38,703 bases of DNA from Lachnospiraceae bacterium (GTDB lineage: Bacteria; Bacillota; Clostridia; Lachnospirales; Lachnospiraceae). Of this stretch, positions 3,995 through 14,839 are shown one piece after another; position 1 is the stretch's first letter; the number at the start of each line of letters is the position of its first letter. Made by a program: the position numbers and the translations under genes. The notes under the pieces were generated by a model. It was not told where the DNA came from. It worked only from the letters and a program-made list of their open reading frames with translations, and did no database searches. The stretch is taken from assembly GCA_015057085.1 (NCBI GenBank), contig SVFB01000067.1, positions 1-38,703 of the forward strand, given 5' to 3'.

Positions 3995-6340
3995 ATGATT
4001 ATGGAAAAAACAAAAGAAATGATGACACTTCCCACGGTAGCGCTTCGCGGTATGACAATTTTGCCGGGAATGATTGCACATTTTGATATTTCAAGGGAAC
4101 GCTCTTTGCGTGCTGTGGAAGTGGCAATGGAAAACAGTCGCAGGATCTTTATTGTGACACAGATGGATCCGGATGTGGAAAATCCGACGGTGCAGGATTT
4201 GTATACGGTTGGTTTATATGCTGAAGTCAAGCAAGTCATCCGCATGCAGAATAATGTCGTCCGTGTCTTAATTAATGGCCTTGAGCGCGCGAGCATATTT
4301 GCTTTTACAGGAAATCCGGATTTCTTAGAGGCAAAGATTCTGTTAGAAGAAGACTATATGGAAGAGGATCTCCCAAAAGAGGCCCAGCTTGCTATGGTAG
4401 AAAGCATTCAGGAAACCTTTATGAAGTATGCTGATACCAATCACAGAGTAGGACAGGAGCGCAAACGCAGAGTCAAGGAAATCAGCGATTTATCGCAGTT
4501 GATTGACTATATCGGTAACTCTCTTCCTGTGGATTTTCCGGAGAAGCAAAAGATTCTCGAGGCAATTTCTTTGACAGCACGTTATGAGGCACTTTTGACA
4601 CTCCTGTTTCAGGAAACAGAAGTAAGCGCCTACAAAGAGGAGTTTCAAAAGAAGGTCAAAGAGCGCGTGGACAAGCATCAAAAGGAATATGTGCTCAGAG
4701 AGCAGATGGCGCAGATTCGTGAGGAACTTGGCACCAATGACGGAGAGTCCGAAATTGATGAGTATCGCGAGAAAACAGAAAATCTTCAAGCTTCTGAAGA
4801 AGTGAAAGCACGACTTCGAAAAGAAATCAAACGTTTGGAGAGTTTGAATGATAATTCTTCTGAAAGTGCGGTTTCGCGAGGATATATTGAAACATTGCTG
4901 GAACTTCCTTGGGATGCAGCAACTGTGGATCGAAAGGATTTAAAATACGCCCAGGATATTCTTGAAGAGGACCATTATGGATTAAAGGATGTCAAAGAGC
5001 GTGTGTTAGAATTCTTGGCAGTGCGCAATCTAACATCAAAGGGAGATGCACCGATTATCTGTCTTGTGGGACCGCCGGGATGCGGTAAGACATCGATTGC
5101 GCATTCCATTGCGCGGGCAGTGGGAAAGGAATATGTGCGCATCAGTCTTGGCGGCGTGCATGATGAGGCAGAAATCCGTGGTCATCGAAAGACTTATGTC
5201 GGAGCGATGCCGGGACGTATCATCGAAGGCCTCAAGCAGGCAAAGGTGAAAAATCCGTTGATGCTTTTGGATGAGATCGATAAGGTTTCCTCTGATCATA
5301 GAGGCGATGTATCTGCTGCGCTGCTTGAAGTCCTGGATTCTGAACAAAATTCCAGATTTAGAGACCATTATGTGGAATTGACTGTGGATTTGTCGGATGT
5401 TTTGTTTATTGCTACTGCCAATGATCGAAACAGCATTCCAAGACCGCTTTGGGATCGTATGGAAATCATAGAAATCCCAGGATATACTGCAAATGAGAAA
5501 TTCCATATCGGACGCAATTATCTGGTGGGAAAGCAACTTGAGAAAAACGGTTTGAATGCAAAGCAGTTAACCTTTAACGATAAGGCACTTAAAGATATTA
5601 TTTCCGGATATACCAGGGAAGCCGGCGTGCGAGAATTGGAGCGTAAAATCGGTTCTGTCTGCAGAAAGGCTGCCAGAAAGGTTTATGAAGGAGATTCCAA
5701 GAAAATCACCATCACCGGAGCAAATTTAAAGGAATATTTAGGACCGGTAAAATTTTTGCCGGAGAAAAAGAATAAAAAGGCAGAAATCGGCATTGTACGT
5801 GGCTTGGCATGGACGGCTGTCGGCGGTGTGACTTTGGAAGTGGAAGTCAATGTGCTTCCGGGAAAAGGCAATTTGCTTTTGACAGGTAAACTAGGAGATG
5901 TAATGAAAGAATCCGCACAGACTGCTTTGTCTTATGTGCGCTCCATTGCACCGAAGTATCATATTCAGGCTGACTTTTTCGAATGTCATGATATTCATAT
6001 TCATATTCCGGAAGGTGCCACACCGAAGGACGGTCCGTCGGCCGGTGTTACATTGACCTGTGCGTTGCTTTCCGCAATCACAGAAATTCCTGTGCGAAGC
6101 GATATCGCAATGACAGGAGAGGTGACTTTGCGTGGCCGCGTGTTGCCAATCGGCGGATTAAAAGAAAAACTGCTTGCTGCAAATATGGCCGGAATGAAAA
6201 CAGTATGCATTCCGAAAGAAAACAATCGTAATCTCGAAGAGATTGACGAGGAAATCACCGAAGGACTTGAAATCATCCTGACAGAGCATGTATCAGAAAA
6301 TATTGACCTTGCCTTTGTGAAAACGAAGACCAAAAAATAA
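3995..6340 (+). CDS. lon: Lon protease, ATP-dependent serine protease
   Basis: Lon degrades misfolded and regulatory proteins in the cytoplasm. The 781-residue protein has the N-terminal LON substrate-binding domain (about 10-200), a coiled-coil linker, an AAA+ module with Walker A GPPGCGKT and Walker B LMLLDEIDK, and the C-terminal protease domain with the Ser-Lys dyad: Ser682 in DGPSAGVT and Lys725 in GGLKEKLL. The 43-residue spacing equals that of E. coli Ser679/Lys722. Two ATGs are possible, 3995 and 4001; AAGGTAG upstream favours either. The gene sits right behind the clpX terminator with no clear promoter of its own, so read-through or a promoter hidden in the hairpin region is likely. 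Confidence 0.97.
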   Translation: MIMEKTKEMMTLPTVALRGMTILPGMIAHFDISRERSLRAVEVAMENSRRIFIVTQMDPDVENPTVQDLYTVGLYAEVKQVIRMQNNVVRVLINGLERASIFAFTGNPDFLEAKILLEEDYMEEDLPKEAQLAMVESIQETFMKYADTNHRVGQERKRRVKEISDLSQLIDYIGNSLPVDFPEKQKILEAISLTARYEALLTLLFQETEVSAYKEEFQKKVKERVDKHQKEYVLREQMAQIREELGTNDGESEIDEYREKTENLQASEEVKARLRKEIKRLESLNDNSSESAVSRGYIETLLELPWDAATVDRKDLKYAQDILEEDHYGLKDVKERVLEFLAVRNLTSKGDAPIICLVGPPGCGKTSIAHSIARAVGKEYVRISLGGVHDEAEIRGHRKTYVGAMPGRIIEGLKQAKVKNPLMLLDEIDKVSSDHRGDVSAALLEVLDSEQNSRFRDHYVELTVDLSDVLFIATANDRNSIPRPLWDRMEIIEIPGYTANEKFHIGRNYLVGKQLEKNGLNAKQLTFNDKALKDIISGYTREAGVRELERKIGSVCRKAARKVYEGDSKKITITGANLKEYLGPVKFLPEKKNKKAEIGIVRGLAWTAVGGVTLEVEVNVLPGKGNLLLTGKLGDVMKESAQTALSYVRSIAPKYHIQADFFECHDIHIHIPEGATPKDGPSAGVTLTCALLSAITEIPVRSDIAMTGEVTLRGRVLPIGGLKEKLLAANMAGMKTVCIPKENNRNLEEIDEEITEGLEIILTEHVSENIDLAFVKTKTKK

Positions 6341-6350
6341 AGGAGATATT

Positions 6351-7685
6351 ATGTGGGCGAATGAAAGCGTGTTTTATCAAATTTATCCGCTGGGATTTTG
6401 TGGGGCTCCATTTGAAAATGATGGAGTTTTGACCAATCGTATTGCAAAAGTAATCGAATGGATTCCACATCTTAAAAAGCTTGGTGTGAATGCAATTTAT
6501 TTTTCACCGATTTTTGAGTCGGATACCCATGGATATAATACAAGAGATTATACCAAAATCGATACCAGACTTGGCACAAATGCAGATTTTAAAGCAGTCT
6601 GTGATGCGCTTCATGCAGCAGGAATCAGAGTGGTTTTGGACGGCGTCTTTAATCATGTAGGCAGAGGCTTCTTTGCCTTTGAAGATGTGAGACAAAACCG
6701 TGAGAATTCAAAGTATCTCGGCTGGTTTCACCGCATCGATTTCGGCGGAAATACCGAATACAATGATGGATTTTGGTATGAGGGCTGGGAAGGCTACAAC
6801 AATATGGTGAAGCTGAATCTGCAAAATGAGGAAGTGGTTTCCTATCTCCTTTCTGCAGTGCAGGGCTGGATCGAAGAATTTGATATCGACGGTCTGCGTC
6901 TGGATGTAGCCTATAGTCTCAATCATGATTTTATACGCCGTTTGCGCAGTCACTGCGATGGTTTAAAGGATGACTTCTTTTTGGTAGGAGAAATGCTTCA
7001 TGGTGATTATAATCAGTTGACCGGAGAGGGCATGCTTCATTCCGTAACGAATTATGAGTGCTACAAGGGATTATATTCCAGCTTTAATTCGATGAATATG
7101 TTTGAAATCAATCATTCCCTGTTGCGACAGTTTGGCCCGGAACAATGGACCTTGTACAAAGGGAAGCATCTGCTTTGCTTCGCGGATAATCATGATGTGG
7201 AGCGAGTGGCAAGTATTCTAAACAATGAGCATCATCTGAAGCCGCTTTATACAATTTTATTTGGAATGCCGGGAATTCCATGTATATATTACGGAAGTGA
7301 GTGGGGAATCAAAGGCCAAAAAGGAAATGATGACAAAGACATTCGCCCTTGTTTAAATGCTCCGGAATGGAATGATTTGACAGATCATATAGCAAAACTT
7401 GCAAGTGTAAAGCGCAAATCAAAGGCACTCAATTACGGAGATTTTCATTCGATTGTATTGACAAATGGCGCTTGCGTATTTCTTCGCCGTTTTGAAGACG
7501 AATGTGTCTATGTATGTGTCAATGCGACAGACCAGTCTTTTTGGGCAGGATTAGATGCAGGTTGTGGGGCGCTTACAAATCTATTGACAAATGAGGAAAT
7601 CACATGGGCCGGAGGTTTCGAGATGGAACCTTACGGATGCTATGTACTTAGCAATATCAGAGGAAAGGACCGGGGTTGTGAGTAA
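6351..7685 (+). CDS. Cytoplasmic GH13 alpha-amylase family glycosidase
   Basis: This 444-residue GH13 enzyme should act on alpha-1,4 (or related) glucans or maltodextrins inside the cell, since no signal peptide is seen. Conserved regions are clear: DGVFNHVG (97-104), GLRLD with the nucleophile Asp185, VGEMLHG with the acid/base Glu214, and ADNHD with the transition-state stabilising Asp282. The compact size and absent carbohydrate-binding modules fit neopullulanase or maltogenic/cyclomaltodextrinase-like intracellular enzymes; the exact specificity cannot be read. It lies 10 bases after lon with AGGAG, and its 3' end overlaps the next gene, suggesting lon-amylase-flavin reductase co-transcription. 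Confidence 0.9.
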   Translation: MWANESVFYQIYPLGFCGAPFENDGVLTNRIAKVIEWIPHLKKLGVNAIYFSPIFESDTHGYNTRDYTKIDTRLGTNADFKAVCDALHAAGIRVVLDGVFNHVGRGFFAFEDVRQNRENSKYLGWFHRIDFGGNTEYNDGFWYEGWEGYNNMVKLNLQNEEVVSYLLSAVQGWIEEFDIDGLRLDVAYSLNHDFIRRLRSHCDGLKDDFFLVGEMLHGDYNQLTGEGMLHSVTNYECYKGLYSSFNSMNMFEINHSLLRQFGPEQWTLYKGKHLLCFADNHDVERVASILNNEHHLKPLYTILFGMPGIPCIYYGSEWGIKGQKGNDDKDIRPCLNAPEWNDLTDHIAKLASVKRKSKALNYGDFHSIVLTNGACVFLRRFEDECVYVCVNATDQSFWAGLDAGCGALTNLLTNEEITWAGGFEMEPYGCYVLSNIRGKDRGCE

Positions 7686-8268
7686 GCAAGATTGGAAGCC
7701 GGGGAATATGCTATATCCATTGCCGGCGGTTATGGTAAGTGTGGCTGGGAAAGAAGAAGGCGATCCTGCAAATATTATCACGGTGGCCTGGGCCGGAACC
7801 ATTTGTACCAATCCGGCGATGGTTTCGATTTCTGTTCGCCCGAGCCGCTATTCGTATGATTTAATTAAGAAACATGGAGAGTTTGTCATCAATCTGACAA
7901 CGAAAGAGCTGGTGAAGGCTTGCGATATCTGTGGCGTAAAAAGCGGTCGCGATGTGGATAAGTTTAAGGAATGTAATCTCACACCTTGCGCACTTTCGCA
8001 TTGCAGCGCCCCTGCAATTGAGGAGAGCCCTGTCAATATCGGATGCCGCGTGAAGCAGGTCTTAGAATTGGGCAGTCATCACATGTTTATCTGCGAAGTG
8101 ACAGGTGTAACAGTGGATGAGCGCTATATGGACGAAACCGGAAAGTTTGAACTAAATGATGCAGAACTGGTGACATATTCCCACGGAGAATATTTTTCAC
8201 TGGGAGAAAAACTTGGCAGTTTTGGTTATTCCGTGCGCAAAAAGAAAAAGAAGAGTGGACGGAAGTAA
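7678..8268 (+). CDS. Flavin reductase family protein (FMN-binding)
   Basis: The product (196 residues) matches the flavin reductase-like FMN-binding family: it opens with KQDWKPGNMLYPLPAVMVS and has NIITVAWAGTICTNPAMVSISV and YSYDLIKKHGEFVINL, typical of clostridial members that reduce flavins or bind FMN for unknown reductions. The open frame extends back to 7591, but the GTG at 7678 is preferred because a GGAAAGGA lies just upstream and the family N-terminus starts there; it overlaps the amylase end by 8 bases. The C-terminus is a short Lys/Arg-rich tail. Its TAA stop lies inside the 8-bp target duplication of the following MITE. Physiological partner unknown. Confidence 0.88.
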   Translation: MSKQDWKPGNMLYPLPAVMVSVAGKEEGDPANIITVAWAGTICTNPAMVSISVRPSRYSYDLIKKHGEFVINLTTKELVKACDICGVKSGRDVDKFKECNLTPCALSHCSAPAIEESPVNIGCRVKQVLELGSHHMFICEVTGVTVDERYMDETGKFELNDAELVTYSHGEYFSLGEKLGSFGYSVRKKKKKSGRK

Positions 8269-8389
8269 AGAGGTTACCATTCACAGCATATATGAAAACC
8301 AAAATATTCTTGCAAAGTGAAGGGGGGTACCGGGGCTATGGGCTGAGGATGTTTATCATAATACAGACTGTGAATGGTAACGTAAAGAG
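8265..8389. mobile_element. 109-bp MITE with 14-bp TIRs and 8-bp target duplication
   Basis: The element spans 8273-8381. It starts with gttaccattcacag and ends with ctgtgaatggtaac, a perfect 14-bp inverted repeat. It is flanked by an 8-bp direct repeat gtaaagag at 8265-8272 and 8382-8389, the mark of transposition. Its inside equals the outer right arm of the palindromic element at 1-383 (63 of 65 terminal bases shared with 319-383; 39 of 39 bases identical to the reverse complement of 1-39). It encodes nothing credible. An 8-bp duplication is compatible with several IS families (for example IS66, IS256, ISL3 or IS1595 types); the partner transposase is not in the window. Confidence 0.9.
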
Positions 8390-8396
8390 AATCCTA

Positions 8397-8425
8397 TTGA
8401 CAAAAAAATATCAATATAGTACTAT
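8397..8425 (+). promoter_or_regulatory. Strong promoter of the crotonase gene
   Basis: Perfect TTGACA at 8397-8402, 17-base spacer, TACTAT at 8420-8425. It begins 15 bases after the MITE end, so the insertion lies immediately upstream of the promoter without breaking it. Confidence 0.8.
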
Positions 8426-8473
8426 ATTTATGTTGTTTTTGTTAAAAAATTATCAAATCAGGAGGGTTCTAAA

Positions 8474-9277
8474 ATGACCGAATTCAAGAATTTGAAGTTA
8501 ACTGTAGAAGACGAAATCGCAGTACTTGCTATTTCTCGCCCGGCAGCATTAAATGCTTTAAACACCGAAACTTTAAAGGAATTAACCGTTGCTTTGAATG
8601 AAATCGAAGTAAGAGATGATGTAAAAGTTTTAATTTTGACAGGTGGTCCTGACAAGAAGGATAACCCATATAAGTCATTTGTTGCAGGTGCAGATATTTC
8701 TGAGATGGTAAACTTCACAGCTCCGGAAGCAAGAGCATTTGGTACGACTGCAGCAGCTCCATTCTTTAAGTTATCAGAGATGCGTCAAGTTACAATCGCA
8801 GCTGTAAACGGATTTGCACTTGGCGGTGGATGTGAAATCGCTATGGCATGTGATATTCGTATCGCAGCAGACAATGCAATCTTTGGACAGCCTGAGACAG
8901 GACTTGGAATCATTCCTGGATTTGGTGGAACACAGAGACTTGCTCGTTTGATCGGAATGGGTCGTGCAAAGGAATTAATCTTCACATGTGATAACATTGA
9001 TGCACAGGAAGCATACAGAATCGGTCTTGTAAATAAGGTTGTAGCTAAGGAAGAATTAATGGATTCTGCAAAGGCTATGGCAAAGAAGATTGCATCTAAG
9101 GGAAGCTATGCAGTATCTCTTGCAAAGGCTGCAATCAATAACGGATATGACATGGATATCAAGAATGCTGTAGAGAGCGAAGCAAACCTCTTCGGTGTTG
9201 TAAATGATACACATGACAAGAAAGAAGGAATGGGAGCATTCCTTGAGAAGAGACAGGCAACTTTGACTGATTTCTAA
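8474..9277 (+). CDS. crt: Crotonase / short-chain enoyl-CoA hydratase
   Basis: Member of the enoyl-CoA hydratase/isomerase family; by similarity to clostridial Crt it would hydrate crotonyl-CoA to and from 3-hydroxybutyryl-CoA in butyrate-type fermentation. The 267-residue protein has the oxyanion-hole loops (AGADISEM; NGFALGGGCE) and both catalytic glutamates, Glu121 and Glu141, 20 residues apart as in rat mitochondrial hydratase. RBS AGGAGG at 8460-8465. It is monocistronic here: strong promoter before it, strong terminator after it, and no bcd-etf-hbd-thl genes nearby, so those must lie elsewhere. Codon use looks optimised, fitting high expression. A different crotonase-family substrate cannot be excluded. 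Confidence 0.85.
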   Translation: MTEFKNLKLTVEDEIAVLAISRPAALNALNTETLKELTVALNEIEVRDDVKVLILTGGPDKKDNPYKSFVAGADISEMVNFTAPEARAFGTTAAAPFFKLSEMRQVTIAAVNGFALGGGCEIAMACDIRIAADNAIFGQPETGLGIIPGFGGTQRLARLIGMGRAKELIFTCDNIDAQEAYRIGLVNKVVAKEELMDSAKAMAKKIASKGSYAVSLAKAAINNGYDMDIKNAVESEANLFGVVNDTHDKKEGMGAFLEKRQATLTDF

Positions 9278-9309
9278 AGATATAGAAATTGTAATTTATT
9301 CAAACCATG

Positions 9310-9339
9310 ATCCCCGGCAGGCTTTGCCGGGGATTTTTT
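9310..9339 (+). terminator. Strong terminator after crt
   Basis: Perfect 10-bp GC-rich stem atccccggca / tgccggggat (9310-9319 and 9325-9334) followed by a T run. Confidence 0.95.
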
Positions 9340-9362: not shown

Positions 9363-9391
9363 TTGATGAAGCTCCGCTTTAAGGTTAAAAT
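9363..9391 (+). promoter_or_regulatory. Probable promoter of the CapA-like/kinase/regulator/mutY operon
   Basis: TTGATG at 9363-9368, 17-base spacer, TAAAAT at 9386-9391, 31 bases before the first ATG. A TATAAT at 9340-9345 directly after the crt terminator is a weaker alternative. Confidence 0.5.
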
Positions 9392-9422: not shown

Positions 9423-10340
9423 ATGAAACGAAGCGGAAAGATTTCGCGGATGCTGATGCCGGCTTTACTGATATCGCTTGGCTTAAGCGGATGTGGAACC
9501 ACCATGTATCAAAAAATGTTAGAGGACAATGACAGACCGGAAGAAATCGATACGGAGTCGGAAGCCGAGACAGAAACACAAGCTGCGGCGGAGGAAGTGG
9601 AAAGCTATCAATTTCAGTTGATTTGTGCAGGAACCATAGATTTGTCTGAAGATGCTACTAACATGGATACCTATCGTTTTTATGAAAGCAATTTAAGCCA
9701 ATGCATTTCAGAAACCTTTCGAAACACAATGAAAGCTGCAGATCTTTGTATTGCAAATGTTCAAAACGCAGAGGCAAACGAGATCACAGAAGAGTTGGGG
9801 ATTGATTTTGATATTCAACAGGTCGGGGAAAAGTCTTTTTCATTGATAGAATCAGATTCGCCGGAAAACGGAGATATTACAGAAACCATAGCTCAAATTG
9901 CTGAGGCATCGGAAACAGTTGATTTTGTCGTGGTTTATGTAAATTGGGATTCAGAAGGCGGATATGAAATTCGCGATACACAAACAGAAATTGCACATGC
10001 ATATATTGATGCCGGTGCAGATGCGGTAATCGGAACGGATTCCTATGTGGTACAGGGAATCGAAATCTATGAGAAGAAGCCTATTTGCTACAGTCTCGGG
10101 AATTTCTGGAGTGATGCGAAAAGCGGAGATACTATGCTTTTGTCCCTTACATTTAGCGGGACGGATGAAGAAGCGAACAGTGTGAAAATACAAATACTGC
10201 CGGGGATCAGAGCCGGTGGACGAAGCGCATATCTGAATAAAGCAGATGAGCAGCTGGAGTTTTTTGAGAAGATTGCAGCCCGTTCCATCAATGTGGAGAT
10301 TGATGAAAACGGATATGCATACGAGAGGGAATCAAGATGA
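9423..10340 (+). CDS. Lipoprotein with degenerate CapA-like fold (pseudoenzyme)
   Basis: A 305-residue predicted lipoprotein: signal peptide with lipobox LSGC (Cys24), then an acidic linker, then a domain resembling the CapA/PgsA metallophosphatase-like family. The family pattern survives (AHAYIDAGADAVIG, VQGIEIYEKKPICYSLGNF), but residues that normally bind metal are changed: the GD motif reads AGT (69-71), the N-x-E motif reads NVQ (112-114), HWG reads NWD (174-176), and the H-P-H motif becomes TDSYV (205-209). The stretch that normally holds the GNNH loop is missing. It should therefore be a non-catalytic surface protein, perhaps a ligand sensor. Its stop overlaps the kinase start (ATGA), so the two are translated together; a sensory role for the kinase is inferred. 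Confidence 0.75.
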   Translation: MKRSGKISRMLMPALLISLGLSGCGTTMYQKMLEDNDRPEEIDTESEAETETQAAAEEVESYQFQLICAGTIDLSEDATNMDTYRFYESNLSQCISETFRNTMKAADLCIANVQNAEANEITEELGIDFDIQQVGEKSFSLIESDSPENGDITETIAQIAEASETVDFVVVYVNWDSEGGYEIRDTQTEIAHAYIDAGADAVIGTDSYVVQGIEIYEKKPICYSLGNFWSDAKSGDTMLLSLTFSGTDEEANSVKIQILPGIRAGGRSAYLNKADEQLEFFEKIAARSINVEIDENGYAYERESR

Positions 10341-11644
10341 CGAATGCGATGACAGTCATTGTATCAGAACTGTGTTTTGCTGCAATTACAGCTATATTTA
10401 CGCTGACAATGGTGATCGTCGGTAAATTTAATACGCGGATTAATCTTCGCGCTGCAGCATTGGAGAGCATGGTTTCTGTGTTGATGCTGACACATGCGGT
10501 AGGAATGCTAATCAGTGGAACTGAGGGGATATTGCCGGCAATTTTTCTGCGTATAATCATATTTATTCATTTTGCAATCAGTTATTTGGCGGTTTGCGAA
10601 TTCAATGCTTACGTCTGGACTTCTCTTGAAATTGGCGGAGCACAAAAGGCCAAGCCGGGAATCATGTGGGTGTATGTGATTTGTACCATCGTCATGGGAT
10701 TATTGATTGTGAGTCAGTGGACCGGATGGTTTTATTATTTCGATGAACATAATACAATGTTCTACGGCAAACTGATTTTGGTATCACCAGCGATGGCTGT
10801 CATGGGACTTGTGGTGGACTGGATATTGGTGATTGTATACCGAAAATATCTTGCAAGAGGAATGTTTATCAAGCTGTCGCTGCTTGTAATATTTCCGATA
10901 ATTGGAGCTGCTTTGGAAAGCTGTTTTCAGAATATGCCATTTGTCAATTTGATGCTGACTGTGGATGGAATATTGGCCTTTGTGGCGACACAGCAGGAGA
11001 CAGCAAGTTATATTCGTATGCAACAGAAGGAATTGTATGAAACGCAGGTCAGCACGTTGCGTTCTCAGATTGCACCGCATTTCTTGTTCAACTGTCTAAG
11101 TACGATTCGTTATTTGTGCAAAATCGATCCGAAACAGGCTTCTGAGGCAGTTATCGATTTGTCATTTTATCTGAGAGGAAATATGGATGCGCTAGACCAG
11201 CTGAATTGTATTCCTTTTGAGCGCGAAGTGGAGCATACCAAGTATTATCTTGCTTTGGAAGCCAGACGGTTTGAAGAAAAAATTAATGTGGAATACGATT
11301 TGCAAGTCCAGAACTTTATGATTCCGCCGTTGACATTGCAACCGATGGTTGAAAATGCTGTAAAGTACGGAATTGCTCCAAAAGAGGAAGGCGGAACAAT
11401 CTGGATTTCGACAAAGGAAAAAGGGGAAATGGTGGAGCTTATGATCAAAGACAACGGGGTGGGATTTGATCAGAAGCAAAAAGTAGATGATGGTCGCTCA
11501 CACCTGGGAATTGCGAATGTGCGCAAGCGTGTGCAGCTGATGAGCCATGGCTCGCTTTCGGTAAAAAGCGAACCTGGCGTAGGAACCATAGTTAAGGTAC
11601 TGGTTCCACAGGGAGGGAAGTATTATGAGGATTTTAGTGGTTGA
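10337..11644 (+). CDS. Seven-TM LytS-like sensor histidine kinase
   Basis: The 435-residue protein has about seven hydrophobic segments (around residues 5-28, 41-60, 65-88, 109-128, 145-167, 177-193, 201-218), a short coiled linker, and a His_kinase/HATPase pair of the LytS/YesM type. The phospho-acceptor is His248 in QIAPHFLFNCLSTIRYL; the ATP-binding part has PMVENAVKYG (N box) and IKDNGVGFD (G1 box). It lacks HAMP, PAS or a large extracellular domain, so it may rely on its membrane region or on the lipoprotein encoded just upstream for sensing. It overlaps both neighbours: 4 bases with the lipoprotein gene and 20 bases with its response regulator. Ligand unknown. Confidence 0.92.
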   Translation: MTNAMTVIVSELCFAAITAIFTLTMVIVGKFNTRINLRAAALESMVSVLMLTHAVGMLISGTEGILPAIFLRIIIFIHFAISYLAVCEFNAYVWTSLEIGGAQKAKPGIMWVYVICTIVMGLLIVSQWTGWFYYFDEHNTMFYGKLILVSPAMAVMGLVVDWILVIVYRKYLARGMFIKLSLLVIFPIIGAALESCFQNMPFVNLMLTVDGILAFVATQQETASYIRMQQKELYETQVSTLRSQIAPHFLFNCLSTIRYLCKIDPKQASEAVIDLSFYLRGNMDALDQLNCIPFEREVEHTKYYLALEARRFEEKINVEYDLQVQNFMIPPLTLQPMVENAVKYGIAPKEEGGTIWISTKEKGEMVELMIKDNGVGFDQKQKVDDGRSHLGIANVRKRVQLMSHGSLSVKSEPGVGTIVKVLVPQGGKYYEDFSG

Positions 11645-12407
11645 TGATGAAAAAGCGCAAATGAGCTTATTGATGGAAGAGCTAAAAGAACTAGAACCTG
11701 ATTCGGAAATTCATGGTTTTTCCAAGCCTAAGGAGGCGCTTGCCTTTGCTGAAACAAATGAAATTGACGTGGCCTTTTTGGATATTCAAATGACACAAAT
11801 CGATGGAATTACCTTGGCAAAGGAATTAAAGAAACTAAAGCCAACAGTTAATATTATTTTTGCGACCGCATTTGGAGATTATGCATTTGATGCCATGAGT
11901 ATGCATGCAAGTGGCTATATTATGAAGCCGGTTTCTGCAAAGCAAATCAAAAATGAATTGGAGAATTTGCGTTATCCCATGTCGGCACCGGCCGGAAATG
12001 GAATCCGAGTGGTTACTTTCGGACCCTTTGATATTTTTGTTAATGGAGAATCTGTCCACTTCGGTCGTGCAAAGTCCAAGGAATTATTGGCATATCTGGT
12101 GGATCGTAGAGGCGCCGGCGTGACAAAGAAGGAATTGGCGGCAGTTATTTTTGAGGATCGGGAATATTCCAGAAGCACACAGGACTATATCAATAAGATT
12201 CTAAGAGAAGTGGAGAAATCCTTAAAAGCAGTAAATGCATCTGAAATGTTTATTAAGAAGATGAATTATTACGCGGTGGATACCTCAAAGTTTACCTGCG
12301 ATATGTATGACTATATGGATGGAAAACCTGAGGCTTTAAATGCCTTCCGCGGAGAATATATGACTCAGTACAGCTGGGCGGAAGATTCAATCGGAGAATT
12401 TTTATAA
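11625..12407 (+). CDS. Response regulator, REC plus BTAD/SARP-like DNA-binding domain
   Basis: The 260-residue protein starts with a receiver domain (acidic pocket VVDDE at 5-9, phospho-acceptor Asp53, Thr81, Lys101) and ends with a winged-helix plus BTAD-like region (about 126-260) beginning VVTFGPFDIFVNGE. LytS-type kinases usually pair with LytTR regulators; this one pairs with a BTAD-type output, a combination seen in clostridial lineages. RBS GGGAGG (11613-11618) lies inside the kinase gene. The stop overlaps the mutY start by one base (TAATG), coupling all four genes. The targets are not visible: no repeated operator was recognised upstream of 9423. Confidence 0.9.
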   Translation: MRILVVDDEKAQMSLLMEELKELEPDSEIHGFSKPKEALAFAETNEIDVAFLDIQMTQIDGITLAKELKKLKPTVNIIFATAFGDYAFDAMSMHASGYIMKPVSAKQIKNELENLRYPMSAPAGNGIRVVTFGPFDIFVNGESVHFGRAKSKELLAYLVDRRGAGVTKKELAAVIFEDREYSRSTQDYINKILREVEKSLKAVNASEMFIKKMNYYAVDTSKFTCDMYDYMDGKPEALNAFRGEYMTQYSWAEDSIGEFL

Positions 12408-13483
12408 TGGATTATGCAACAGCGGAAAAATGGATGAAAGAAAATACCGGTTTGGCACAGATTTTGTGCGACTGGTTTGATGAAAATGCCAGGGTTTTGC
12501 CCTGGCGTTCTTCTGCTAGCCCATATCATGTTTGGATATCTGAGATTATGCTTCAACAAACACGTGTGGAGGCTGTTAAGCGCTATTTTGAGCGGTTTAC
12601 GGCAGAATTGCCGGATGTGAAAGCATTGGCAGAATGCCCAGAGGATGAATATCTAAAATTGTGGGAAGGACTTGGTTACTACAGTCGGGTCAGAAACCTT
12701 CATGCCGCAGCAGTTCAGGTAATGGATGAATATGGCGGAGAATTGCCATCGGAATACGAACAGCTCCTGAAATTAAAGGGGATTGGAAGCTATACTGCAG
12801 GCGCGATTTCTTCGATTGCATTCGGAAAGCCTGCCCCGGCAGTGGATGGGAATGTGCTTCGGGTGTTGATGCGTCTGTTGAAATGTGAATGGGATATAGC
12901 GCAGGCAGATACCAAAAAGAAGGTTGAGAAGATGCTTGATGCCTGGTTACGGGCAGATGGGATGAAACCGGGGAATTTAAATCAGGCATTGATGGAACTT
13001 GGCGCGCTGGTATGTGTGCCAAATGGAGCTCCCCATTGCGAGGAATGCCCTTGGAATCAGTTTTGCGAAACAAGACGAGAACAGGATTGGGAAGCAATTC
13101 CTGTGAAGACACAAAAAAAGCCGCGCAAAATCGAAGAGATGACGGTTTTTGTATTGCAAAACCAGGAGGGAATCTATTTTCGGAAGCGTCCGGCAAAAGG
13201 GCTTTTGGCAGGCTTGTATGAATTCCCGAATGTAAAAGGCTTATTAGATCAAAAGCAGGCTTTGGCAGAGGCAGAGAAAATGGGTGTAAAACCAATCCGA
13301 ATTCGCAGAATTGATGATGCAAAGCATATCTTTACACATATTGAGTGGCATATGATCGGCTATGAGATTTTAGTGGAGAGCGAAGCCAATGAGGAGATGC
13401 TTTATGTGGATATCGAAACTGCGCGAGAGCACTTTGCGATTCCTTCTGCTTTTTCGGCCTATAAAAAGTATATTGGCGTATAA
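12407..13483 (+). CDS. mutY: A/G-specific adenine glycosylase MutY
   Basis: MutY removes adenine mispaired with 8-oxoguanine in base excision repair. The 358-residue protein has the catalytic Glu in SEIMLQQTRVE, the helix-hairpin-helix LKGIGSYTAGAI, the catalytic Asp in PAVDGNVLR, and a four-cysteine [4Fe-4S] motif CVPNGAPHCEECPWNQFC (spacing C-x7-C-x2-C-x5-C, one residue more in the first gap than the E. coli pattern). The C-terminal part is the NUDIX-like domain that recognises 8-oxoG. It is the last gene of the sensor operon, with its start overlapping the regulator stop, and is closed by a strong terminator. Confidence 0.95.
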   Translation: MDYATAEKWMKENTGLAQILCDWFDENARVLPWRSSASPYHVWISEIMLQQTRVEAVKRYFERFTAELPDVKALAECPEDEYLKLWEGLGYYSRVRNLHAAAVQVMDEYGGELPSEYEQLLKLKGIGSYTAGAISSIAFGKPAPAVDGNVLRVLMRLLKCEWDIAQADTKKKVEKMLDAWLRADGMKPGNLNQALMELGALVCVPNGAPHCEECPWNQFCETRREQDWEAIPVKTQKKPRKIEEMTVFVLQNQEGIYFRKRPAKGLLAGLYEFPNVKGLLDQKQALAEAEKMGVKPIRIRRIDDAKHIFTHIEWHMIGYEILVESEANEEMLYVDIETAREHFAIPSAFSAYKKYIGV

Positions 13484-13762: not shown

Positions 13763-14839
13763 ATGAACAAAAAGCATTTCAAACAAAAGCAATTGAAACA
13801 AAAATCCAAGATGAAATACGGAGTTGGTGGTATCCTACTTGCTGCTGTCATGGCAGCAGTGTTTGCATTAACCAAAACTCCAAATACAATTAGCTCAGAT
13901 ATAGCAAATCCGAATACAGAAAATTTAGATACAGCTAATTCAGATACAGCAGGTTCGAATTCAGATACAGCAGGTTCGAATTCAGATGTCACAGATTTGG
14001 ATGTTGCAATTCCGGAATACTCAGGCTGTGCTTTTACAATTGTAAACGACAATCAGCCATATTTTACGGAGGAAGATCTAGAAGCCGATTGGAATTATGA
14101 ATACTATGGCAATTTAGATACATTAGGACGCTGTACGATTGCGGAAGCTATGGTTTCGAAGGATTCCATGCCGGCGGAGAAACGCGGAGATATTTCTTCT
14201 GTGCATCCAACAGGATTTGTAAATCAAAGCTACGGAGATTTGGTGGAGAGCGATTATTTGTATAATCGATGTCATTTGATTGCCTTTTCTCTGGCAGGTG
14301 AAAATGATAATGAATGTAATTTGATTACAGGCACCAATTATATGAATCTTCAGGGGATGAATCCTTTTGAAACCTATGTGAGAAATTATTTGAATGATAC
14401 GGGAAATCATGTATTTTATCGTGTCACTCCAATCTTTGAAGGCGAGAATCTGGTGGCAAGCGGAGTTCTCATGGAGGCGAAGTCCATCGAGGATGACGGG
14501 ATCTGCTTTTGTATTTATGCCTACAATGTTCAGCCCGGTGTGAGCATTGATTATGCCACAGGTGAAAATGAGCGCAGCAATCTCTATGCAGATTATATTG
14601 GAAATACAACCGATTATATTGGCGAGGTTGCAAATGGAAATTTAAAGAGTTATCAAGCGGTGAATCTTATGACAGAAGCGACGGACTATGATTATGTGGT
14701 CAATATTAATACAGGGCGTGTTCACAAGAAAAGCTGTGCTTCCGTAGCGGATATTCATTCTACCAACCTCCGTTACTATAAGGGAAACTATGAGGACTTG
14801 ATCCAAAACGGATACATTCTGTGCAATCGATGTTTCTGA
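13763..14839 (+). CDS. Membrane-anchored or secreted DNA/RNA non-specific endonuclease
   Basis: The 358-residue protein has a basic N-terminus, one hydrophobic segment (about 20-37), a low-complexity Ser/Asn/Asp/Thr linker (42-80) with an NSDTAGS repeat, and a Endonuclease_NS_2-type (ββα-metal) nuclease core. The core motif is NRCHLIAFSLAGE with His171, then NLITGTNYMNLQGM with Asn186/Asn192; the commoner first motif is D-R-G-H, so D and G are replaced. The C-terminal 40 residues have VHKKSC...CNRC with three to four cysteines, like the small Ada-type metal-binding tail found on secreted nucleases. A role in DNA scavenging or uptake is likely. No strong RBS precedes 13763; the ATG at 13817 is an alternative. 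Confidence 0.82.
   Translation: MNKKHFKQKQLKQKSKMKYGVGGILLAAVMAAVFALTKTPNTISSDIANPNTENLDTANSDTAGSNSDTAGSNSDVTDLDVAIPEYSGCAFTIVNDNQPYFTEEDLEADWNYEYYGNLDTLGRCTIAEAMVSKDSMPAEKRGDISSVHPTGFVNQSYGDLVESDYLYNRCHLIAFSLAGENDNECNLITGTNYMNLQGMNPFETYVRNYLNDTGNHVFYRVTPIFEGENLVASGVLMEAKSIEDDGICFCIYAYNVQPGVSIDYATGENERSNLYADYIGNTTDYIGEVANGNLKSYQAVNLMTEATDYDYVVNINTGRVHKKSCASVADIHSTNLRYYKGNYEDLIQNGYILCNRCF
13937..13987 (+). repeat. 21-bp tandem repeat in the endonuclease linker
   Basis: A 21-bp unit beginning aattcagatacagc occurs twice in full (13937-13957, 13958-13978) and once in part. It encodes the NSDTAGS linker repeat in frame, so copy-number slippage would change only linker length. Confidence 0.85.

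Follow-up and report, generated by a model that had tools for sequence, protein, structure and literature searches.

Does a lipoprotein gene that lies directly upstream of a histidine kinase and its response regulator encode a third part of the sensor, or does it only happen to stand beside the pair? This question is raised by a contig of a gut Lachnospiraceae bacterium (GCA_015057085.1, SVFB01000067.1; 38,703 nucleotides, the whole of which is called the window here, and which lies on contig C66 of a genome of 2.79 Mb and 96.7% completeness). Re-reading of the sequence placed three open reading frames in succession on the + strand, the strand of all window features described below: a CapA-derived lipoprotein (9423–10340), a LytS-type membrane histidine kinase (10337–11644) and a response regulator (11625–12407). 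In the reading that we tentatively prefer, a dead, lineage-specific CapA has come to stand in front of an older kinase–regulator pair and serves the kinase as an accessory subunit.

The lipoprotein, 305 amino acids long, has a lipobox (LSGC) with Cys24 (9492–9494) invariant in 10/10 rows of alignment A1, and matches the Pfam model PGA_cap (PF09587) at 88.8 bits against a cut-off of 27, the match being confined to residues 140–231 (profile positions 163–254 of 255). Its predicted structure is a shortened calcineurin-like fold that lacks the strand and helix which surround NNH in other members; it should be noted that the family alignment steers this confident prediction. A search with Foldseek alone returned four matches at E ≤ 0.001, all of them to the lasso-peptide epimerase MslH (8gq9, 8itg), the closest structural relative, with which the lipoprotein shares sequence in the C-terminal half as well as the predicted calcineurin-like fold; this fold is also found in a eukaryotic protein titled anchor in its entry, which is not a sensor. 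Of 42 conserved positions in the C-terminal half, 33 are retained. Measured against the majority of the relatives, the domain lacks 79 residues in four gaps (19 residues after position 114, 26 after 129, 17 after 136 and 17 after 150), and two gaps of 3 and 7 residues fall in the linker. By profile and by fold the protein is a member of the CapA family, but it does not have the intact metal site (GD, NNE, NNH, HWG and GxHxH); metal-site motifs are present in two further CapA genes of the same genome (L001, G000:C24:21602-22342, and L002, G000:C36:5320-6051).

The metal site was compared with that of nine intact relatives from the same genus, and then with 56 relatives (set A4) drawn from 80 named CapA loci, which were the best 80 of 329 from an alignment-based scan; the 24 loci left out were fragments, fusions, or long or similar frames, and were not chosen by motif. 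A further set, A5, comprised L155, the window and 35 others. Relative to the 56, the window protein shows D71T, N113V, E114Q, deletion of NNH, H174N, G176D, H206D and H208Y. Thr71 (9633–9635) stands for the metal-site Asp, which is present in 56/56 relatives and is matched to Asp11 of MslH by motif only. Val113–Gln114 (9759–9764), directly before the 19-residue deletion, replaces Asn (55/56) and Glu (56/56), the latter aligned with MslH Glu44, and the 26 residues gone at the junction after residue 129 (9807–9812) include NNH, each residue of which is found in 56/56 relatives, together with the following Asp (MslH Asn87, His88 and Asp91). Asn174 (9942–9944) takes the place of the His of HWG (55/56, with one masked; MslH His259), Asp176 that of its Gly (56/56), and Asp206 and Tyr208 (10038–10046) those of both His of GxHxH (56/56 each; Tyr208 aligns with MslH His295). 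When all 81 frames of the 80 CapA loci were checked with loose patterns, every one contained GxHxH, 79 had NNH and 78 an HWGxE-type motif; the exceptions are two contig-end fragments (L192 and L208) and one masked frame (L218).

The metal ligands of MslH, as given in passages of PMC10406935, are Glu44, Asn87, His259 and His261, and its catalytic dyads are His88/Asp91 and His295/Asp11. The alignment sets Gln114, Asn174, Asp176 and Tyr208 of the window protein against Glu44, His259, His261 and His295, with a gap at Asn87, His88 and Asp91, and with Asp11 outside the aligned region. Because the equivalent of His261 is Gly in the relatives as well, this position does not represent a loss of the window lineage; the other seven of the eight functional residues have equivalents in the relatives, and in the window each of these has been either substituted or lost to a deletion. 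The lipoprotein is a dead metallophosphoesterase fold, a pseudoenzyme. The original prediction had placed the three frames at the coordinates given above, and had described a protein that keeps the CapA C-terminal framework while every named metal-site motif is changed and the NNH region is missing, and had suggested a dead enzyme; all of this is borne out.

The kinase (435 amino acids) matches His_kinase (PF06580, 72.7 bits) and HATPase_c (48.6 bits) and belongs to the LytS/YehU type by its PHFxxN motif; the phospho-acceptor His248 (11078–11080) and Asn252 are both invariant in 14/14 homologues. Nine windows from a hydropathy scan, three of them overlapping, merge into about seven hydrophobic segments joined by loops of at most 22 residues, so that the kinase is without a separate extracellular domain, as had been proposed. 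One of these loops, between segments 4 and 5 (residues 126–142; 10712–10762), reads SQWTGWFYYFDEHNTMF here and follows the consensus SQxxxxYYYxDxxNxYxR of the 14 homologues, most of which carry YYYxDxxN, with Tyr133 and Asn139 invariant. Judging from hydropathy and charge (the positive-inside rule) it would face outward, and its conservation gives the kinase family a candidate sensor of its own. The regulator (260 amino acids) was predicted to be of REC-BTAD type, which is correct for the receiver (81.7 bits in Pfam, with the phospho-acceptor Asp53 at 11781–11783 invariant in 11/11) but not for BTAD, no model of which scores at E up to 1 in Pfam for any of the 11 regulators. What follows the receiver is a winged helix, probably OmpR/SARP-like, with a short conserved tail, only about 38 residues lying C-terminal to the winged helix; Trans_reg_C matches weakly in the window regulator (E 0.086) and in 6/11 members at E up to 1, and the winged-helix region has weak profile matches to OmpR-type winged helices as well as to AfsR (E 0.04) and EmbR (E 0.09), with 1p2f at E 0.0022.

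It is plausible that lipoprotein and kinase share a sensing role, a reading drawn from the position in the operon and from the precedents CuaD–CuaSR and QseG–QseE. A CapA-family lipoprotein gene would have entered, or survived only in, this lineage, 5' of an older kinase–regulator pair, and its product appears to have lost the enzyme chemistry, whereas its lipid anchor and the majority of conserved C-terminal positions are retained. Presumably it is exported and then anchored to the outer side of the membrane through Cys24, followed by an acidic linker of some 35 residues. There it may work metal-free, as an accessory subunit whose target is either a ligand lodged in the former active-site cleft or the kinase itself, and may tune the kinase by way of the short loops that face outward; the kinase would then phosphorylate the regulator. 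As the pair lives without the lipoprotein in related species, the latter would be an extra part that sharpens a sensor already in place or gives it a new specificity, in the way that CuaD does with CuaSR.

As to the original remark that no named system with this layout was known, no CapA–kinase system is among the literature matches listed, which form a part of the relevant literature; lipoprotein–kinase partnerships are known with other folds. The XylFII-LytS system belongs to Clostridium beijerinckii. In this system, which is cited in a passage of PMC10384115, a solute-binding protein forms a complex with the extracellular domain of the LytS kinase, unlike the window, where the lipoprotein has a predicted fold different from that of XylFII and the kinase no such domain. 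In CuaD-CuaS-CuaR of Ruminiclostridium cellulolyticum the lipoprotein gene likewise adjoins the genes of a kinase and a regulator, and the two-component pair CuaS-CuaR also perceives its signal alone, according to parts of PMC10384115; however, CuaD is described there as a solute-binding protein, modeled in complex with extracellular domains of CuaS, whereas the protein discussed here has a predicted calcineurin-like fold and would have to bind a kinase with short loops only. Sections of PMC12691602 describe QseG-QseE-QseF, encoded in one gene cluster, in which the lipoprotein binds and activates the histidine kinase; QseG differs in being an outer-membrane lipoprotein of the Pseudomonadota from a widespread cluster.

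Several observations weigh against a role of the lipoprotein in the sensor, foremost the gene neighborhoods of related genomes. Relatives of the kinase were found in 8/62 genomes of the genus (E ≤ 1e-60) and 271/397 of the family (E ≤ 1e-20), the window genome included, and 95 kinase loci, from 76 genomes by a hand count, were picked from the best rows, later with preference for the form of about 440 amino acids; a few longer kinases are among them, and some loci end at contig ends. The regulator adjoins the kinase in 75 of these 95 neighborhoods and a CapA lipoprotein in none. Conversely, a kinase or regulator of comparable kind stands beside CapA in 0/80 of the best 80 of 329 CapA loci, three of which have generic matches some 2.4 to 5.5 kb away. 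G351, a genome of the same genus, has the gene order of the window (lon-like, amylase-like, flavoprotein-like, enoyl-CoA hydratase, kinase, regulator, mutY, nuclease; the amylase-like and flavoprotein-like labels were given by eye) without the lipoprotein, of which no remnant was detected there, only matches of 11–18 nucleotides at E 0.43 or worse. No ortholog of the lipoprotein was found in the 62 genus and 397 family genomes searched. The other matches, 12 in the genus genomes at E ≤ 1e-22 and 4 in the family genomes at E ≤ 1e-28, cover the C-terminal half only, at 36–44% identity; of the 16, 13 were read, and these are all intact CapA proteins. A contig scan with the lipoprotein alone gave 52 stretches that fit a pattern, none of which codes for a relative. 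A conserved three-gene system is rejected by these neighborhoods, and by the condition that the original prediction had itself set for refutation, namely that homologues never adjoin the kinase. Compared with lipoprotein-dependent three-component systems, a gene for an exported protein adjoins those of kinase and regulator in this genome only, the arrangement is not kept in relatives, and the kinase has no extracellular domain on which a binding protein could dock. What may still hold, judged from sequence, is a lineage-specific lipoprotein–kinase partnership.

Translational coupling, on which the original prediction relied, carries little weight for the same question: the overlaps exist (4 nucleotides between lipoprotein stop and kinase start, which share ATGA, and 20 nucleotides between kinase and regulator), but they extend by 1 nucleotide to mutY, an operon neighbor that has no sensory role and is no part of the sensor (a mutY-like adenine glycosylase gene with HhH-GPD and NUDIX_4; 12407–13483). 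Nor did the sensor half of the kinase change faster than that of G351. The two are 39% identical, compared with 61% for the kinase half, yet lineage-specific changes number 16 in the window and 19 in G351, and co-change with the lipoprotein was rejected for want of an excess. Two further points against fit decay of the lipoprotein gene as well: its branch, of unsure place in the tree, measures 3.53 changes per column compared with 0.22 for the median end branch, and simulated drift leaves its frame open in a fifth of the runs when divergence is small. These simulations started from two relatives and scored the 305-codon frame as open or not; the share of runs in which it stayed open was about 20% where identity to the start was 90%, 2.4–4.2% at 80%, 1.4–2.4% at 72% and 0–0.2% at 60%, which makes a long neutral decay unlikely and is compatible with a recent one.

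The alternative that survives these results best, although we regard it as rather unlikely, is that the lipoprotein is a working, metal-free surface binder unrelated to the kinase, a chance member of a compact operon that shares nothing but the transcript. The overlaps that take in mutY agree with this, as does the fact that CapA and kinase are never neighbors in the other loci examined, and the kinase has a conserved loop of its own and stands without the lipoprotein elsewhere. Against it speaks the position of the gene beside a kinase–regulator pair, which is, by analogy, the layout of known accessory sensors such as CuaD.

Less probable still is that the gene is a decaying passenger, a displaced CapA copy on its way to loss whose frame is open by chance. 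The lost site residues, the four deletions, the long branch and the missing orthologs would all follow from decay, and about one drift run in five stays open if just 10% of the residues have changed neutrally. However, the gene has neither stop nor frameshift, an outcome that becomes rare in the runs at 72% identity and nearly vanishes at 60%; most of the conserved C-terminal positions remain, the predicted fold is confident, with the caveat on the steering alignment given above, the lipobox is intact, GGAG precedes the start, and codon-position GC (guanine plus cytosine) content lies within the range of the neighboring genes. The last result also led us to reject a foreign origin of the gene by base composition.

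As to what might be sensed, nothing that we found points to the cell-wall or polyglutamate-like material proposed originally. That the dead CapA fold is a ligand-binding subunit of a kinase without an extracellular domain, and that the signal consists of nucleotides or nucleic-acid breakdown products and not of cell wall, seems improbable, but three genes suggest that the signal may be nucleotide-related. In locus L140, from another genus, a 5'-nucleotidase (7329–9302, minus strand) is encoded 23 nucleotides upstream of another member of the kinase family (5983–7305); it scores 58.8 bits for 5_nucleotid_C, 40.7 for Metallophos and a marginal 27.7 for PGA_cap (cut-off 27), and has a hydrophobic C-terminal end. 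One kinase of the family is thus encoded next to a protein from the superfamily to which the lipoprotein belongs. In L071, also from another genus, the gene of a nuclease lipoprotein (4888–5925) lies 18 nucleotides upstream of the kinase and encodes a DNA/RNA non-specific nuclease homologous to that of the window, whose gene (13763–14839) is found two genes 3' of the regulator, as it is in G351. A recurrent recruitment of secreted phosphohydrolases or nucleases by the kinase family was set aside and enters only into this improbable reading, the 95 loci containing one 5'-nucleotidase and, besides the G351 copy of the window nuclease, one nuclease. It is very improbable that the lipoprotein has remained an enzyme by means of a metal site that is rearranged or of another kind: calcineurin-like enzymes can switch the metals they use (MslH works with one Ca ion, according to a passage of PMC10406935) and two acidic residues not present in the relatives, Asp176 and Asp206, lie close to the former site, but all seven MslH functional residues with equivalents in the relatives are replaced or deleted and the predicted structure has neither the strand nor the helix around NNH.

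Upstream of the operon, a terminator-like hairpin (9309–9335; a 12-pair stem, a 3-base loop and a T tail) follows the enoyl-CoA hydratase gene and sets it apart, although such hairpins are not commoner in the region than chance (4, compared with 4.0 in shuffles). A promoter-like site, TTGATG-17-TAAAAT (9363–9391; 9/12 matches), lies 31 bases 5' of the lipoprotein start; with 7 such sites in the region and 11.1 expected by chance, only its position is apt. Downstream, mutY has a match in 54/62 genus genomes, and among the 30 mutY loci listed the regulator precedes it only in the window and G351, none occurring within 1.5 kb in the other 28.

The surroundings of the kinase pair in other genomes are varied. 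A gene on the same strand lies at most 80 nucleotides upstream of the kinase in 34/95 loci, some of which were covered by a Pfam scan. Homologues of a dCache-GGDEF protein (E ≤ 1e-5) occur near the kinase in 12/95 loci (L066, L073, L126 and 9 more), three of them confirmed by Pfam. In L126, L129, L132, L133, L144 and L067 the genes near the pair include some for large surface proteins with SpaA, Flg_new and Big_2 domains, for a sortase or for a GH10 xylanase, a hint as to the regulon of the pair. Among the CapA relatives, three genus loci have a transporter-like multi-helix part (MATE-like by eye) fused to an intact CapA lipoprotein domain, in frames of 844 (L181, 1677–4211), 847 (L006) and 844 (L009) amino acids.

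Should the preferred reading of the lipoprotein as an accessory subunit of the kinase be true, an accessory sensor subunit would have arisen from an inactivated member of the CapA family, a family annotated for capsule synthesis, and the locus would illustrate how one lineage can add a third component to a two-component pair. Whether or not it is linked to the kinase, the lipoprotein clearly exemplifies the loss of the whole metal site in a CapA protein most of whose C-terminal scaffold is retained.

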